Below are positions 3,099 through 15,857 of a stretch of DNA of 57,541 nt, one piece after another; positions within the stretch are counted from its first letter, which is position 1; the number at the start of each line of letters is the position of its first letter. A program made the translations under genes and the position numbers. A model generated the notes under the pieces. The model was not told the origin of the DNA, searched no databases, and saw nothing but the letters and a program-made list of their open reading frames with translations. Source of the DNA: Rubrivivax sp. (lineage in GTDB: Bacteria > Pseudomonadota > Gammaproteobacteria > Burkholderiales > Burkholderiaceae_C); contig JAEUPH010000292.1 in the NCBI GenBank assembly GCA_016790395.1, forward strand, positions 1 to 57,541, read 5' to 3'.

Positions 3099-4091
3099 TC
3101 AGGTCCAGGTGAGGACGATCTTGCCGACGTGGGTGCTCGACTCCATCAAGGCGTGCGCCTCGGCCGCCTTCGGGGCCGCGAACACCTGGTGGATGACGGG
3201 CTTGATGCGCCCGGCTTCGAGCAGCGGCCAGACGGTGGCGCGCAGTTCGCGCGCGAGGCCAGTCTTGTAGGGAACGGAACGGGGACGCAGCGTGGAGCCC
3301 GTGATGGACAAGCGCTTGCGCAGCACGAGACCGCTGTCGATGCTGCTCTTCGTGCCGCCCTGCACCGCGATGATGGCCAGGCGGCCGTCTTCGGCCAGGC
3401 ACTCGAGCTCGCGGCCGACGTAATCGCCAGCCACCATGTCGAGCACCACGTCCACGCCGCGGCCGGTGATGCGCCTGACCTCGGCGACGAAGTCCTGCGT
3501 CTTGTAGTTGATGGCGTGGTCGGCGCCCAGCGCCAGGCAGGCGGCGCACTTCTCGTCGCTGCCCGCGGTGACGATGACGCGCGCGCCCAGCGCCTTGGCC
3601 AGTTGGATCGCTGTGACGCCGATGCCGCTGGAGCCGCCCTGCACCAGCAGTGTCTCGCCGGCGGCCAGCTTCGCGATCGCGAAGACGTTCTGCCAGACGG
3701 TGAAGAAGGTCTCGGGGAGGCTCGCCGCCTCGACCATGTTCAGTCCTGCCGGCACCGGCAGGCACTGGCCCGCGGGCGCGACGCAGAACTCGGCATAGCC
3801 GCCGCCGGCCACCAGCGCGCAGACGGCATCGCCAACGGCCAGCCCGGCTGCCGCCAGGTCTTCAGGCGCGCCACCGGCCACGGTGCCCGCGATCTCCAGG
3901 CCAGGCAGGTCACTGACGCCCGGGGGCATGGGGTACAGGCCCTTGCGCTGGAGCACGTCGGGTCGGTTCACGCCCGACGCCTGCACGGCGATCAGCAGTT
4001 CACCCGGCTGGGGCGCGGGTGCAGGCCGTTCGCAGGCCCGCAAAACCTCGGGCCCACCCGGCGCGCTGATCTCGATCGCTCGCATGCTCAT
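3099..4091 (-). CDS. NAD(P)H quinone oxidoreductase, PIG3-type medium-chain dehydrogenase
   Basis: Zinc-free medium-chain dehydrogenase/reductase of the PIG3/QOR group, 330 aa. The N-terminal GroES-like domain contains VQASGVNRPDVLQRKGLYP, and the Rossmann domain contains VQGGSSGIGVTAIQLAKALG. The family reduces quinones with NADPH; the substrate cannot be read from sequence. It is packed between pnp (17 bp) and tpiA (6 bp), a neighbourhood I associate with Burkholderiales. Confidence 0.9.
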   Translation of the reverse strand: MSMRAIEISAPGGPEVLRACERPAPAPQPGELLIAVQASGVNRPDVLQRKGLYPMPPGVSDLPGLEIAGTVAGGAPEDLAAAGLAVGDAVCALVAGGGYAEFCVAPAGQCLPVPAGLNMVEAASLPETFFTVWQNVFAIAKLAAGETLLVQGGSSGIGVTAIQLAKALGARVIVTAGSDEKCAACLALGADHAINYKTQDFVAEVRRITGRGVDVVLDMVAGDYVGRELECLAEDGRLAIIAVQGGTKSSIDSGLVLRKRLSITGSTLRPRSVPYKTGLARELRATVWPLLEAGRIKPVIHQVFAAPKAAEAHALMESSTHVGKIVLTWT

Positions 4092-11081: not shown

Positions 11082-11711
11082 ATGTCACCGGCTGCCACCC
11101 GCATCGTCATCGTCGCACCCGACTCCTTGGTGGTGGAGCCCGGTGACGAGCAGGCGGCCGCCGAAGTGGAACGCTCGCGCAGTCTGCGCATCGGGCTGCT
11201 GGAGGCCGGCTACAACATCATCGCCGTGCTGCCGGCCGACCCTTTCCTGCCTGACCGGCTGAACCAGCTGCAGCCGGACATGATCGTCGTCGATGCCGAA
11301 AGCCAGGCGCGCGACACGCTGGAGCACGTGGTGATGGCCACGCGCGACGCGCGGCGGCCCATCGTCATGTTCACCGAAGACGAAGACACCACGCACGTGC
11401 GCCATGCCATCGCCGCCGGCGTCACGGCCTACGTGGTCGCGGGCCTGGCGCCGGAACGGGTGAAGCCGGTGCTGGAAGTGGCGCTGGCCCGCTTCGAGCA
11501 CGAGGAAACGCTGCGACGCGAACTGGCCGAGGCCCGCAGCCAGCTCGCCGACCGCAAGGTGGTGGACCGCGCCAAGGGCCTGCTCATGCAGCGCCACCAG
11601 ATCGGCGAGCCCGAGGCCTACGCACGCATCCGCAAGGCGGCGATGGACAAGGGCCTGAAGATGGCCGACATCGCTCAGCGCATCGTCGATGCCGCCGACC
11701 TGCTGATGTAG
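11082..11711 (+). CDS. nasT: ANTAR-domain antiterminator response regulator, NasT type
   Basis: RNA-binding regulator, 209 aa. Residues 6-130 form a receiver-like domain with the phospho-acceptor-type Asp at about 71 (MIVVDAES). Residues 150-209 form an ANTAR domain ([20 protein letters not shown] then [20 protein letters not shown]). NasT proteins bind leader RNA carrying two hexaloop hairpins and prevent terminator formation when nitrate or nitrite is present. Exactly such a leader follows at 11830-11951, before the nitrate transporter genes. The usual inhibitor NasS is not encoded next to it. The start is the ATG 40 bp from tsaD; the longer upstream frame would run into tsaD. Confidence 0.9.
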
Positions 11712-11799
11712 CGCCCGCGCGCACCAGCGCTGCGCGCCGCCGCCGCGCATTGGTGCGGTGCAGCGAGGCGCGGCAATGCGCGCCCCAGGCAGCCCCTGC

Positions 11800-11815
11800 T
11801 GGCACGCGCTTTGCA
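11800..11815 (+). promoter_or_regulatory. Sigma-54 (-24/-12) promoter of the nitrate transporter operon
   Basis: TGGCACG-CGCT-TTGCA matches the RpoN consensus TGGCAC-R-N4-TTGCW at every fixed position, with the invariant GG and GC separated by 10 nt. The predicted transcript start is about 11826, just before hairpin P1. Upstream at 11721-11757 are GCACCA and TTGGTGC half-sites that could serve an NtrC-type activator, but their spacing is not canonical. Confidence 0.88.
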
Positions 11816-11829
11816 ACGCGTTTGGCAGA

Positions 11830-11906
11830 GAGAGATCAAAGCCGATTTCTCGCCAGCGCCGGCCCACCGCATCGTTTGCGGCGGTCCGGCGGGACAAGGG
11901 CGTCCT
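11830..11906 (+). promoter_or_regulatory. ANTAR-type antiterminator leader: hairpins P1 and P2
   Basis: P1 (11830-11851): 8-bp stem GAGAGATC/GATTTCTC (one G-U pair) with hexaloop AAAGCC. Linker hairpin (11858-11890): outer GCCGG/CCGGC and inner CCGCA/TGCGG. P2 (11891-11906): 5-bp stem GGGAC/GTCCT (one G-U) with hexaloop AAGGGC. Both hexaloops have A at position 1 and G at position 4, the signature of known ANTAR target RNAs. P2 shares bases 11896-11905 with the 5' arm of the terminator, so the two structures exclude each other. Predicted function: NasT binding stabilises P1/P2 and allows read-through into nrtA. Confidence 0.82.
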
Positions 11907-11953
11907 CACCCGTGCGTGCCGTTCGCGGCGCGCCGACGTGCGGACGCCCTTTT
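11896..11953 (+). terminator. Leader (attenuator) terminator before the nitrate transporter genes
   Basis: AAGGGCGTCC (11896-11905) pairs perfectly over 10 bp with GGACGCCCTT (11942-11951). The stem is followed by a T-rich stretch (TTTTGCATTT counting the last two stem bases). The long GC-rich loop can fold further. It lies between the sigma-54 promoter and the first structural gene, so it acts on the operon's own transcript rather than ending an upstream one. Confidence 0.85.
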
Positions 11954-11996
11954 GCATTTCCTGTCGCATTCATCGGCCCCCAACTTGCTGGACACC

Positions 11997-13265
11997 ATGA
12001 ACCACTCTTCTTTATCCGGACGCATCGACATGGCACGCCGCTCCATCGTCAAGGCCGCCGCCGCCACCGGCGCCGCCGGCCTTCTCCCCGGCCTCCAGGC
12101 TGCCGTGCATGCCGCAGGCAGCGACAAGCCCGAGAAGGAGGAAGTGCGCATCGGCTTCATCCCGCTGACCGATTGCGCCAGCGTGGTGATGGCCAGCGTG
12201 CTGGGCTTCGACAAGAAGTACGGCGTGAAGATCATCCCCACCAAGGAAGCCAGCTGGGCCGGCGTGCGCGACAAGCTCGTCAATGGCGAACTGGACATGG
12301 CGCACGTGTTGTACGGGCTGGTCTACGGCGTGCACCTGGGCGTGGGCGGGCCGAAGAAAGACATGGCCGTGCTAATGACGCTGAACAACAACGGTCAGGC
12401 CATCAGCCTGTCGAAGAAGCTGGCCGACAAGGGTGCGGTGGACGGAGCGAGCCTCGCCAAGGCCATGGCCGCCGAGAAGCGCGAATACACCTTCGCGCAG
12501 ACCTTCCCCACCGGCACGCATGCCATGTGGCTGTACTACTGGCTGGCCTCTGCGGGCATCAATCCCATGAAGGACGCCAAGGTCATCACCGTGCCGCCGC
12601 CACAGATGGTGGCCAACATGCGTGTGGGCAACATGGACGGCTTCTGCGTCGGCGAGCCCTGGAACCATCGCGCCATCATCGACGGCATCGGCGTCACCGC
12701 CGTGACCACGCAGGACATCTGGAAGGACCACCCCGAGAAGGTGCTGGGCACGACGGGCGATTTCGTCAAGAAGTACCCCAACACGGCGCGCGCCGTGATG
12801 ATGGCGGTGCTGGAGGCCAGCAAGTGGATCGACGCCGGCCTGTCGAACAAGAACAAGATGGCCGAGACCATCGCCGACAAGAGCTACGTCAACACCGGCG
12901 TCGACGCCATCAACCAGCGCATCCTGGGCCGCTACCAGAACGGCCTCGGCAAGACCTGGGACGACCCGAACTACATGAAGTTCTTCAACGACGGCGCGGT
13001 GAACTTCCCGTACCTGTCCGACGGCATGTGGTTTCTCACGCAGCACAAGCGCTGGGGCCTGCTGAAGGACCACCCCGACTACCTGGGCGTGGCCAAGCAG
13101 ATCAACCAGGTGGCGCTCTACAAGGAAGCCGCCGGCGCGCTGAAGATCAGTGTGCCCAAGTCCGAGATGCGGAGCAGCAAGCTCATCGACGGCGTGGTCT
13201 GGGACGGCAGCAATCCCGCCAAGTACGCGGATTCGTTCAAGGTCAAGGTCGGCGCGGCCGGCTGA
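11997..13265 (+). CDS. nrtA: Nitrate ABC transporter, substrate-binding protein (NrtA/CmpA family)
   Basis: Binding protein of the NrtA/CmpA/SsuA group, 422 aa. The N-terminus carries a twin-arginine-like signal (ARRSIVKAAAATGAAGLLPG), so export via Tat is likely. The core has EVRIGFIPLTDCASVVMASV, QTFPTGTHAMWLYYWLASAG and MDGFCVGEPWNHRAI, all typical of nitrate/bicarbonate-binding proteins. Two ATGs are possible (11997 and 12030); both keep the signal. It is the first gene after the antiterminator leader. Nitrate is the likely ligand because of the NasT/ANTAR control and the nas genes elsewhere in the window. Confidence 0.9.
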   Translation: MNHSSLSGRIDMARRSIVKAAAATGAAGLLPGLQAAVHAAGSDKPEKEEVRIGFIPLTDCASVVMASVLGFDKKYGVKIIPTKEASWAGVRDKLVNGELDMAHVLYGLVYGVHLGVGGPKKDMAVLMTLNNNGQAISLSKKLADKGAVDGASLAKAMAAEKREYTFAQTFPTGTHAMWLYYWLASAGINPMKDAKVITVPPPQMVANMRVGNMDGFCVGEPWNHRAIIDGIGVTAVTTQDIWKDHPEKVLGTTGDFVKKYPNTARAVMMAVLEASKWIDAGLSNKNKMAETIADKSYVNTGVDAINQRILGRYQNGLGKTWDDPNYMKFFNDGAVNFPYLSDGMWFLTQHKRWGLLKDHPDYLGVAKQINQVALYKEAAGALKISVPKSEMRSSKLIDGVVWDGSNPAKYADSFKVKVGAAG

Positions 13266-13278
13266 CCCGAAGCACGCC

Positions 13279-14169
13279 ATGGTTGCCGCTGTCTTCCACA
13301 CCTCCGTGCACGAGCCCACCGTGCCTGCCGCCAGTGCGGCGGCCGTACCGGTGAAGTCCGCCGTCCCACCCGCCAAGGCGCCGCGTGTGCCCTTCGACTG
13401 GCGAGGCCTCTGGCTGCGCGTGCTGCCGCCGGTCTTGGGTCTGGCGCTGCTGGTGGGTGTGTGGGCCTTGCTGACGATGAACAGCACGGCCTTTCCCACG
13501 CCGCTGGCCACCTTCGACGCCGCCGTGAAGCTGTTCGCCGACCCCTTCTACAGCAAGGGGCCGAACGACCAGGGCATTGGCTGGAACGTGCTGTTCTCGC
13601 TGCAGCGCGTCGCCCTGGGCTTCGGCATGGCGGCGCTGGTGGGCATCCCGCTGGGCTTCATGCTGGGGCGCTTCGAGTTCCTGTCGCGCATGGTGAACCC
13701 GCTGGTGAGCCTGCTGCGCCCGGTGAGCCCGCTGGCCTGGCTGCCCATCGGCCTGCTGGTGTTCAAGGCGGCCAACCCGGCGGCCATCTGGACCATCTTC
13801 ATCTGCAGCATCTGGCCGATGATCATCAACACCGCGGTGGGCGTGCAGCGCGTGCCGGTGGACTACCTCAACGTCGCCAAGGTGCTGAACTTGAGCGAGT
13901 GGAAGGTGATCACCAAGATCCTGTTCCCTGCCGTGCTGCCCTACATGCTCACGGGCGTGCGGCTGAGCGTGGGCACGGCCTGGCTCGTGATCGTGGCCGC
14001 CGAGATGCTGACCGGCGGCGTGGGCATCGGCTTCTGGGTGTGGGACGAGTGGAACAACCTCAACGTCAAGCACATCATCGTCGCCATCTTCGTCATCGGC
14101 ATCGTCGGCCTGCTGCTCGAACAACTCCTGATCTGGATCGCCAAGAGGTTCACCTATGACGAGCACTGA
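13279..14169 (+). CDS. nrtB: Nitrate ABC transporter, permease
   Basis: Inner-membrane permease of the NrtB/SsuC family, 296 aa. The ATG at 13279 follows nrtA by 13 bp. It has an Ala/Pro-rich cytosolic N-terminus of about 40 residues, then helices at about residues 54-73 and 113-140 and further ones to the C-terminus (IIVAIFVIGIVGLLLEQLLI). The EAA-like coupling loop is YLNVAKVLNLSEWKVITKI, the contact with the ATPase. Its 3' end overlaps the ATPase gene by 14 bp, indicating translational coupling. Confidence 0.93.
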   Translation: MVAAVFHTSVHEPTVPAASAAAVPVKSAVPPAKAPRVPFDWRGLWLRVLPPVLGLALLVGVWALLTMNSTAFPTPLATFDAAVKLFADPFYSKGPNDQGIGWNVLFSLQRVALGFGMAALVGIPLGFMLGRFEFLSRMVNPLVSLLRPVSPLAWLPIGLLVFKAANPAAIWTIFICSIWPMIINTAVGVQRVPVDYLNVAKVLNLSEWKVITKILFPAVLPYMLTGVRLSVGTAWLVIVAAEMLTGGVGIGFWVWDEWNNLNVKHIIVAIFVIGIVGLLLEQLLIWIAKRFTYDEH

Positions 14170-14962
14170 CTTCATCAAGGTCGAGGGCGCCGAAATGGTG
14201 TTCGAGACCAGGAAGGGCCGCTTCCACGCGCTGCGCGAGATCGACCTGAGCATCGCGCAAGGCGAGTTCGTGGCGCTCATCGGCCATTCGGGCTGCGGCA
14301 AGAGCACGCTGCTGAACCTCATCGCCGGGCTGCTGAAACCCACCGGCGGCGTGCTGCTGTGCGACAGGCGCGAGATCGCTGCCCCCGGCCCCGAGCGCGC
14401 CGTGGTGTTCCAGAACCACTCGCTGCTGCCCTGGCTGAGCTGCGCCGAGAACGTGCACCTGGCGGTGGAGCGCGTTTTCGGGGCCACCGAAACCAAGGCG
14501 CAGCTGCAGGCGCGCACGCTGGCGGCGCTGGAACTGGTGGGCATGGGCCACGCCGCGACCAAGCGGCCGCACGAGATCAGCGGCGGCATGAAGCAGCGCG
14601 TGGGCATCGCACGTGCGCTCGCCATGGAGCCCAAGGTGCTGCTGATGGACGAACCCTTCGGCGCGCTGGACGCGCTCACGCGCGCACGGTTGCAGGACGA
14701 ACTGCTGAAGATCGTGGCGCGCACGAAGAGCACGGTGGTGATGGTCACGCACGACGTCGACGAAGCCGTGCTGCTGAGCGACCGCATCGTGATGATGACC
14801 AACGGCCCGGCCGCCACCATCGGCGAGATCCTGCGCGTGGACCTGCCCCGCCCGCGCGACCGCGTGGCGCTGGCCGAGGATCGCGGCTACGTGCAGTGCC
14901 GCAAGGAAGTGCTGGACTTCCTCTACACGCGCCAGGGCCACGTGGAGAAGGCGGCAGCCTGA
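14156..14962 (+). CDS. nrtD: Nitrate ABC transporter, ATP-binding protein
   Basis: ATPase of 268 aa, single domain (NrtD/SsuB-like, without the extra binding-protein domain of cyanobacterial NrtC). Walker A is GHSGCGKST, Q-loop VVFQNHSLLPWL, signature SGGMKQRVGIARAL, Walker B VLLMDEPFGALD and H-loop VMVTHDVDEA. All are intact. It overlaps the permease by 14 bp and is followed after 4 bp by the GAF-repeat gene. The symbol follows domain content; in other annotations this gene is called nrtC or nasD. Confidence 0.92.
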   Translation: MTSTDFIKVEGAEMVFETRKGRFHALREIDLSIAQGEFVALIGHSGCGKSTLLNLIAGLLKPTGGVLLCDRREIAAPGPERAVVFQNHSLLPWLSCAENVHLAVERVFGATETKAQLQARTLAALELVGMGHAATKRPHEISGGMKQRVGIARALAMEPKVLLMDEPFGALDALTRARLQDELLKIVARTKSTVVMVTHDVDEAVLLSDRIVMMTNGPAATIGEILRVDLPRPRDRVALAEDRGYVQCRKEVLDFLYTRQGHVEKAAA

Positions 14963-14966
14963 ACGC

Positions 14967-15857
14967 ATGAGCCGCAGCTTCATCCGCGCCGTCGAAGTCT
15001 GGTTGCCCAGCGAAGACGCCACCCTGCTCGAGTTCGCGGGCGGCCACTTCCCGCCCGCTTCTCGCATGCCTCAGGTCAGCCGTGGCATGTGCTTCGGCAG
15101 AGGCGAAGGTCTGCCCGGCAGGGCCTGGGACCTGGCAGCGCCCGTGGTGCTGCACGACTTCGCCGGCAGCTACTTCCGCCGCACCGAGGCGGCACTGGCC
15201 GACGGGCTGAACTGCGGCATGGCATGGCCCATCTTTGCCGGCACGGCCCTGCGTGCCGTGGTGGTGTTCTTCTGCGGCGACGACGAGGCGCACGCCGGTG
15301 CCATCGAGCTGTGGCACAACGACCCGGCGAATCCGGCGCTTGGACACGACATGGTGCTGCTGGACGGCCACTACGGCCGCACCGCCGACACTTTCGAGTT
15401 CATCTCGCGCCGCACCAGCTTTCGCCGCGGCACCGGCCTTCCGGGCATGGCCTGGGCGTCGCACGCCCCGGTGTTCCTGCCCGACCTGGGACGCGGCTCC
15501 GGCTTCCTGCGCGCCGACGGTGCGCAGAAGGTGGGCATCAACCGCGGCCTGGCACTCCCCTGCTCGGTGCCTGGACCACAGGCGTTCGTGCTGACGTTCC
15601 TGTCGGCGCTGGGCACGCCCATCGCCCAGCGGGTCGAAGTGTGGCGGCCGCTGGCTTCGACCTGGACACTGGCAGAAGGCTTCTGCGAGACGCAGGGCAG
15701 CTTGGCCGGCCTGGCGATCCGGACGCCCGCCCCCGAGGTGGCTCTGTGCCGCGACAGCGCCCGCCCGGTGGTCGGCAGCGCGCCTGCGGCGCCCATCGTC
15801 GCCCTGCCCGTGCTGGACCGCGGCACGCTCGTTGCCGTCGTCGCCCTGCAACTCTGA
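14967..15857 (+). CDS. Repeated GAF-domain protein in the nitrate transport operon
   Basis: A 296-aa protein without signal peptide or output domain, 4 bp after the ATPase gene. It is an internal duplication: unit 1 (about residues 8-110) and unit 2 (112-220) both begin with a V/I-E-V/L-W strand, share R-G-x-G-L-P-G-x-A-W (48-54 and 157-163), then P-V-x-L-x-D and a G-x-N-x-G-x-A-x-P segment. A third VEVW at 223 starts a shorter degenerate copy. This fits tandem GAF folds that bind small ligands. Membership in a NasT-controlled operon that lacks NasS suggests a sensing role in nitrate regulation; that is inference. Confidence 0.8.
   Translation: MSRSFIRAVEVWLPSEDATLLEFAGGHFPPASRMPQVSRGMCFGRGEGLPGRAWDLAAPVVLHDFAGSYFRRTEAALADGLNCGMAWPIFAGTALRAVVVFFCGDDEAHAGAIELWHNDPANPALGHDMVLLDGHYGRTADTFEFISRRTSFRRGTGLPGMAWASHAPVFLPDLGRGSGFLRADGAQKVGINRGLALPCSVPGPQAFVLTFLSALGTPIAQRVEVWRPLASTWTLAEGFCETQGSLAGLAIRTPAPEVALCRDSARPVVGSAPAAPIVALPVLDRGTLVAVVALQL

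Follow-up and report, generated by a model that had tools for sequence, protein, structure and literature searches.

A probable three-hairpin ANTAR-type leader RNA before the nitrate transporter genes nrtABC of Rubrivivax sp., and its likeness to the P11 and narK RNAs

Background

The closest described relatives of the RNA element reported here are the leaders of nas and nirB operons controlled by the antitermination proteins NasT and NasR. They have in common with our leader an ANTAR protein, hairpins whose hexaloops carry A at position 1 and G at position 4 (A1/G4), an overlap between the last hairpin and the terminator, and nitrate genes downstream. These leaders contain two hairpins, whereas the leader described here has three, the middle one filling the usual linker. 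Romeo (2012) reportedly places antitermination inside the P. aeruginosa nirBD operon. NasS-NasT systems include a nasS gene, in contrast to the present locus, where nasT stands without nasS beside it. The passages of PMC3795266 drawn on here state that Paracoccus NasT, once freed by nitrate, is an oligomer that on the whole agrees with a hexamer, and that it binds the leader of nasA.

The A1/G4 hexaloops are also shared with the eut leaders and with the EutX RNA, both of which are bound by EutV, although these belong to another operon with the partner kinase EutW, and EutX is a sequestering sRNA rather than a leader of the present kind. An additional G4 hexaloop is reported beside the dual motif of EutX (PMC8934654, passages cited). 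According to the passages cited from PMC8934654 and PMC3369931, an EutV dimer is modelled to sit on the first hairpin and then to move to the antiterminator hairpin, one hexaloop is the proposed minimal EutV site, and the linkers of eut leaders measure 5-12 nt, longer ones hurting or abolishing antitermination.

Two Rfam families are relevant as well, P11 (RF00625, type Gene) and narK RNA (RF03032, type Cis-reg). P11 is known as an sRNA and is a reported driver of inherited avoidance in C. elegans (PMC10977744, passages cited); it is also said, with reference to Marogi 2024, to regulate the nitrogen assimilation operon of PA14 (PMC12080996, passages cited), so that its tie to nitrogen assimilation is already in print. 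In the main texts of openly available papers we found no literature joining P11, PA14 and antitermination and, in the passages covered, no mention of three hexaloops in one leader. New here are the third hairpin and the connection to the P11 and narK RNAs.

Results and discussion

Architecture of the nasT-nrtABC locus

The window, as we call the whole stretch of 57,541 nt that was analysed, contains the leader within a 285-nt intergenic region between nasT (11082-11711) and nrtABC (11997-14962). The features of the locus are as follows.

11082..11711, + strand: nasT, ANTAR-domain antiterminator of 209 aa (Pfam ANTAR PF03861, 75.8 bits, cut-off 27.3)
11721..11735, + strand: NtrC-like box GCAC-N7-GTGC with one mismatch (pattern match, upstream of the promoter)
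11800..11815, + strand: sigma-54 promoter (-24/-12), TGGCACG-N4-TTGCA (direct sequence; in 10/10 genus leaders)
11830..11851, + strand: P1, 8-bp stem with hexaloop AAAGCC (A1, G4) (fold; covariation in the genus)
11857..11891, + strand: middle hairpin of 35 nt, apical loop AUCGUUU at 11871-11877 closed by a C-G pair (fold; covariation)
11892..11905, + strand: P3, antiterminator hairpin with hexaloop AAGGGC (A1, G4) (fold; loops in the genus)
11896..11953, + strand: intrinsic terminator, its 5' arm formed by the loop and 3' arm of P3 (fold, -41.1 kcal/mol)
11997..13265, + strand: nrtA, nitrate-binding protein (NMT1_2 PF13379, 345 bits)
13279..14169, + strand: nrtB, nitrate ABC transporter permease (TIGR01183, 249.9 bits, over cut-off)
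14156..14962, + strand: nrtC/D, nitrate ABC transporter ATPase (TIGR01184, 335.5 bits, over cut-off)

The ANTAR match of nasT bears out the proposal of an earlier note on this DNA that such a protein is encoded just upstream of the leader. Relatives of nasT that are 82-90% identical were found in nine further genomes of the same genus, and an nrtA match adjoins nasT in 46 of 51 family-level loci. The N-terminus of the window's nrtA product reads as a twin-arginine-like export signal. The same genome has a second, weaker ANTAR domain of 31.9 bits at another locus (L002, G000:C201:11504-11620).

The perfect RpoN promoter claimed in the earlier note is present, TGGCACG-N4-TTGCA conforming to what we take to be the sigma-54 consensus, and its position points to the probable transcript start. 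The upstream box follows GCAC-N7-GTGC, presumably the NtrC box consensus. Exact copies occur in 30 of 51 upstream regions against 0.49 expected, and copies with at most one mismatch in 48 of 51 against 7.5 expected; the window and all nine genus relatives have one mismatch, none being exact. Since NtrC-like boxes precede the promoter, nitrogen shortage would start the transcript.

Predicted folds of the leader

Folding of 11820-11965 (146 nt), a slightly wider stretch than the earlier note had suggested for this check, gave z = -5.9, with none of 200 shuffles equally stable, and recovered the predicted elements with small changes in coordinates. P1 (GAGAGAUC-AAAGCC-GAUUUCUC, predicted -8.4 kcal/mol) and P3 (GGAC-AAGGGC-GUCC, predicted -4.0 kcal/mol), the latter formerly named P2, were both found with the hexaloops that had been assigned to them. 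The hairpin noticed between them is indeed present and stable (predicted -24.7 kcal/mol), its length being 35 nt instead of 33. The top of this hairpin in the window reads CCGC-AUCGUUU-GCGG, a loop of 7 nt, or of 5 nt if A and U pair. The terminator stem opens with ten contiguous pairs and its 5' arm starts at 11896, in agreement with the 10-bp terminator proposed to reuse the loop and 3' arm of the antiterminator hairpin; the 3' arm, which contains GGACGCCC at 11942-11949, is followed by UUUU at 11950-11953. P3 and the terminator are thus mutually exclusive in the predicted folds of the window. The predicted energy of the leader is -77.9 with the terminator and -60.2 with P3 forced; the two folds share P1 and the middle hairpin unchanged.

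The features of ANTAR leaders found here are two hairpins with A1/G4 hexaloops, the last of which excludes a terminator, and an ANTAR protein (NasT) encoded in the genome. The short linker is the feature that is missing: P1 and P3 are 40 nt apart compared to 5-12 nt, a range that comes from the E. faecalis eut genes and may not define all ANTAR leaders. When the middle hairpin is discounted, the single-stranded spacers flanking it in the window are 2+0 nt (5+0 in another fold), and such spacers total at most 15 nt in 37 of the 39 family-level leaders measured. We consider the switch very likely to be real and to be a member of the ANTAR antitermination leaders, the short-linker feature aside. 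A pattern search for further P3-type sites elsewhere in the genome returned 11 matches, compared to 113 for a reversed-pattern control, and none is claimed.

Conservation within the genus

Ten of the 81 genomes sampled from the genus, the window's own included, encode a NasT of at least 82% identity, and all ten leaders contain the promoter, P1, the middle hairpin and P3. In the alignment of the ten sequences, standard pairs fill 96.3% of the 240 pair cells, and both partners have changed in 14 of the 24 pairs, neither value being reached in 500 shuffles; structures slid along the same alignment pair in just 35-45% of cells. All cells of P1 are paired (100%), with both-side changes at five of its eight pairs, and the middle helix is paired in 92.5% of cells with both-side changes at nine of its 12 pairs. 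The A1 and G4 bases claimed in the earlier note for the loops AAAGCC and AAGGGC are retained in P1 and P3 of all ten genus members.

With the C-G pair common to all ten members as anchor, the middle loops of the genus read AUCGUUU, AAGGUUU, AAGGACU, CAUGUGU, AGGGUUU, ACUGUCU, AGCGCUU, AUCGUCU, GAAGUUC and AGCGUUU. These 7-nt loops have G4 in 10/10 and A1 in 8/10 cases, and position 7 is U in nine of them and C in the one with G1 (L245). The composition hints at a possible pair between positions 1 and 7 (mostly A-U; G-C in L245) that would leave a plain 5-nt loop in the genus. In L238, L240 and L245 the middle loop is smaller still in the minimum-energy fold. Both observations speak against a protein site in this loop of the genus. 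Two loci of the genus with more distant NasT relatives (L248 and L249, 53-55% identity) have the middle hexaloops AATGGC and AAGGCC.

The middle hairpin in family-level relatives

For a broader comparison we collected the region 3' of nasT from 51 family-level genomes with a NasT identity of at least 53%. A recognizable promoter, P1 and P3 were present in 39 of them; the other 12 were dropped before counting owing to the lack of a promoter match (L014, L024, L038, L047, L048 and L054), an unrecognized P3 (L007, L013, L028, L056 and L057) or a missing P1 (L029). Inspection by eye of the dropped loci that have a promoter showed a middle A1/G4 hexaloop only in L029 and not in L007, L013 or L028, with L056 and L057 resembling another architecture.

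The linker is at least 14 nt long in 37 of the 39 leaders. A middle hexaloop was called when the linker could form an A1/G4 hexaloop hairpin at a cost of at most 2 kcal/mol relative to its best fold, which was the case in 30 of the 37 long-linker leaders against 1.28 expected from dinucleotide shuffles of the same linkers; the seven leaders without one include the window. The P1 assignment is wrong or uncertain for no fewer than seven leaders (L005, L012, L019, L020, L027, L030 and L041). One of the 30 calls, L005, was made via a misplaced P1, although its true middle hairpin (loop AGCGTT) fits too, and it was excluded from the loop statistics, which use the other 29. Among features that were not part of the filter, position 2 is A and the closing pair is C-G in 29/29 middle hexaloops, and position 6 is C in 25/29. 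This closing pair is the same as that of P1 and P3 in the genus. The stem varies, with five or six pair types at each of pairs 3 to 5 (29, 25 and 21 leaders, respectively).

Two details that the earlier note had called unusual appear as the rule in this sample: the linker hairpin is a family feature, and P1 begins 0 to 6 nt past the inferred start in 30/39 leaders by automatic call, so that a P1 near the start is the norm among the relatives. By these comparisons, the middle hairpin of the window is the counterpart of the ANTAR-type hairpin of its relatives, and the window contains a diverged three-hairpin leader. Because the linker hairpin matches the middle ANTAR-type hairpin of the relatives, we describe the leader as three-hairpin rather than as a dual motif with an odd linker.

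The A1/G4 signature, the retention of which in close relatives the earlier note had made a test of its reading, is constant in the genus and less so in the family. All three loops carry it in only 15 of the 39 family-level leaders, and the P1 loop deviates in 8/39 by automatic assignment. In 15/39 leaders, including L004, L006, L008, L015 and L017, the P3 hexaloop has G1, which can pair with C6 (GACGGC, GATGGC, GAAGGC and GACGAC). Overall, the reading of the locus as a sigma-54 promoter with an ANTAR antitermination switch stands with respect to architecture, the adjoining nasT, covariation, and A1/G4 in the genus; it is revised in that three hairpins replace the dual motif and A1/G4 is not universal beyond the genus.

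Linkers of just 1-2 nt were found in L046 and L051, which are two-hairpin leaders and natural counterparts of the three-hairpin ones. Among loci of the same family with a NasT of 41-51% identity, 11 of 13 (L063-L075) have two hexaloop hairpins about 3-20 nt apart, so that these less similar NasT proteins are accompanied by shorter linkers.

Proposed mechanism and the role of the middle hairpin

Taken together, the element is probably the leader RNA of the nrtABC operon with two-step control, consisting of initiation by NtrC and sigma-54 and antitermination by NasT, in which the middle element serves as a third ANTAR-type hairpin. Under nitrogen shortage, NtrC and sigma-54 would start transcription, and without bound NasT the transcript would end at the terminator. 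NasT would be recruited to P1 once this hairpin leaves the polymerase, would pass along the middle hairpin or also occupy it, and would finally hold P3, using up the 5' arm of the terminator and letting transcription continue into nrtA. The middle hairpin has a hexaloop in relatives; in the window's genus this loop would have grown to 7 nt, or closed to one of 5. It spans what without it would be a 40-nt linker. The elements, their covariation, the genes and the match of the middle hairpin to that of the relatives are observed, whereas we infer the binding of NasT, the sequence of steps, any function of the middle loop, nitrate as the signal and the part of NtrC. Three NasT dimers on three hairpins would make an attractive match to the hexamer-like NasT of Paracoccus, a speculative analogy.

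The strongest competitor, to which we give a minor though real chance, is that only P1 and P3 bind NasT and that the middle hairpin is a structural spacer that folds the long linker away and keeps them close. The short single-stranded spacers around the middle helix, near the eut linkers in total length, agree with this, as does the lack of a hexaloop in the window's middle hairpin. A spacer, however, would need neither a loop with A1, A2 and G4 nor the shared C-G closing pair, both of which are kept in relatives, and G4 is retained in all ten middle loops of the genus. If the middle hairpin is a third site, the recruitment-and-transfer model of ANTAR antitermination can be tested directly on three tandem sites, because natural two-hairpin and three-hairpin leaders coexist.

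Similar leaders and the P11 and narK RNAs

An independent sample was obtained by scanning named genomes with a pattern that fixed only the promoter and the last hairpin, 58-88 nt apart. It matched at least 120 stretches, and 80 loci were analysed. Two more A1/G4 hexaloops were found in 32 of the 80, one in 43 and none in five, compared to 0.02 leaders having at least two and 3.35 having at least one in shuffles; a terminator-like end is present in 76/80. Among the matches listed, and with groups taken from record titles, the three-loop kind accounts for 22 of the 36 loci from the Pseudomonas group and for 10 of the remaining 44. Eighteen of the 22 Pseudomonas three-loop loci were scanned against Rfam, and all 18 are P11 (95-137 bits, cut-off 70). 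The narK RNA model exceeds its cut-off in 11 of the same 18 stretches.

The Rfam consensus of P11, as seen with L078 (126 bits), contains a sigma-54 promoter and the hexaloops AACGau, AuaGAA and AAAGGC, the last of which sits in the terminator. P11 therefore has in common with our leader the promoter, the three-hairpin layout and the last hairpin in the terminator, and differs in that P1 lies further from the start. The narK RNA resembles our leader in having a sigma-54 promoter followed by ANTAR-type hairpins, but its model spans two hairpins and no terminator, compared to three hairpins and a terminator in the window. This resemblance to a sigma-54/NasT ANTAR leader was observed in L132 and ten other Pseudomonas loci, and in L090-L117.

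Both RNAs share one cluster with nasT in Pseudomonas sp. TH41 (L132). The order there is a NasS-like gene (NMT1_2 match; no export signal seen in the sequence as read), nasT (ANTAR, 61.2 bits), the narK RNA (3609-3679), a nitrate/nitrite transporter gene of the NarK family (TIGR00886, barely over cut-off), a protein kinase gene, P11, and the start of nirB (TIGR02374, 392 bits, under the full-length cut-off since the gene is cut by the end of the stretch). P11 thus stands before nirB, downstream of nasS-nasT, and the narK RNA between nasT and the transporter gene, whereas the window's leader stands before nrtA.

The window itself is not a member of either family by Rfam rules. Its matches are full-length but weak, 16.5 bits to RF00625 (gathering cut-off 70) and 16.0 bits to RF03032 (gathering cut-off 43.2), and the only Rfam hit in the window at the gathering score is a minus-strand tRNA at 1686-1767. 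The P11 and narK models exceeded the Rfam cut-offs in 1/369 and 3/250 sampled genomes and in 0/14 control genomes. Forty loci found with the two models in the sampled genomes were considered, 36 under and four over the Rfam cut-off; 35 of the 40 parse as leaders of this type, with at least one further A1/G4 hexaloop in 33 and two in eight. Matches of the narK model with three hexaloops are L108, L112, L113, L115 and L116.

From these comparisons, P11 and narK RNA both look like NasT-type ANTAR leaders, which provides a mechanistic reading for two Rfam families. If P11 is such a leader, its level would be set by nitrogen shortage and by termination without nitrate. The sRNA status of P11 also bears on a second, rather improbable alternative, by which the third hairpin exists for the sake of the terminated transcript: P1 and the middle loop would form a complete pair of NasT sites and soak up NasT as EutX does EutV. 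In line with this proposal, both hairpins keep their fold in the terminated form, whereas a dual leader would keep P1 alone; P11, alike in layout, is known as an sRNA (PMC10977744, passages cited), and EutX is reported with its additional hexaloop (PMC8934654, passages cited). It assumes, on the other hand, that leader copy number suffices to titrate NasT. An evolutionary version, which we likewise regard as a long shot, holds that the three-site design evolved for feedback, each aborted transcript being a complete two-site NasT decoy that draws down the free NasT and makes the response to nitrate sharper, with P11 as an example and sRNA accumulation as its function in the bacterium.

The question of the sensor

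How NasT senses nitrate is a question posed by three-site leaders in genomes lacking a recognizable NasS. NasS is an NrtA-like sensor that lacks an export signal, and a search with the Pseudomonas NasS found no separate NasS gene in 12 genomes; the window's own assembly is 75% complete, and ten of the 12 genomes reach 90% completeness or more and stay at or below 5% contamination. The best match in 12/12 genomes is the NrtA of the operon (51-56% identity), other matches reaching at most 37%. As no NasS was found, the switch is without a known sensor, a point against the proposed mechanism. NrtA itself may be the partner or sensor of NasT in place of NasS. The lack of a separate NasS in these genomes would also suit a nitrate-blind, constitutive leader, with the sigma-54 promoter as all the control and the hairpins as mere terminator and RNA stabilizers, but loop bases and closing pairs kept while stems covary, together with the nasT gene staying adjacent, make this very improbable.

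A GAF-domain protein (39.3 bits) is encoded at 14967-15857, directly 3' of the nitrate transporter genes. It was considered as a substitute sensor and rejected, with matches in only three of the 12 genomes, its own included. A match to it occurs on the nasT contig of one genome (G804), and a 67% partial match lies close to nrtA in L129. Finally, a second NrtA-like gene lies at another place of the window's genome (L034, G000:C230), with a permease-like gene after it.
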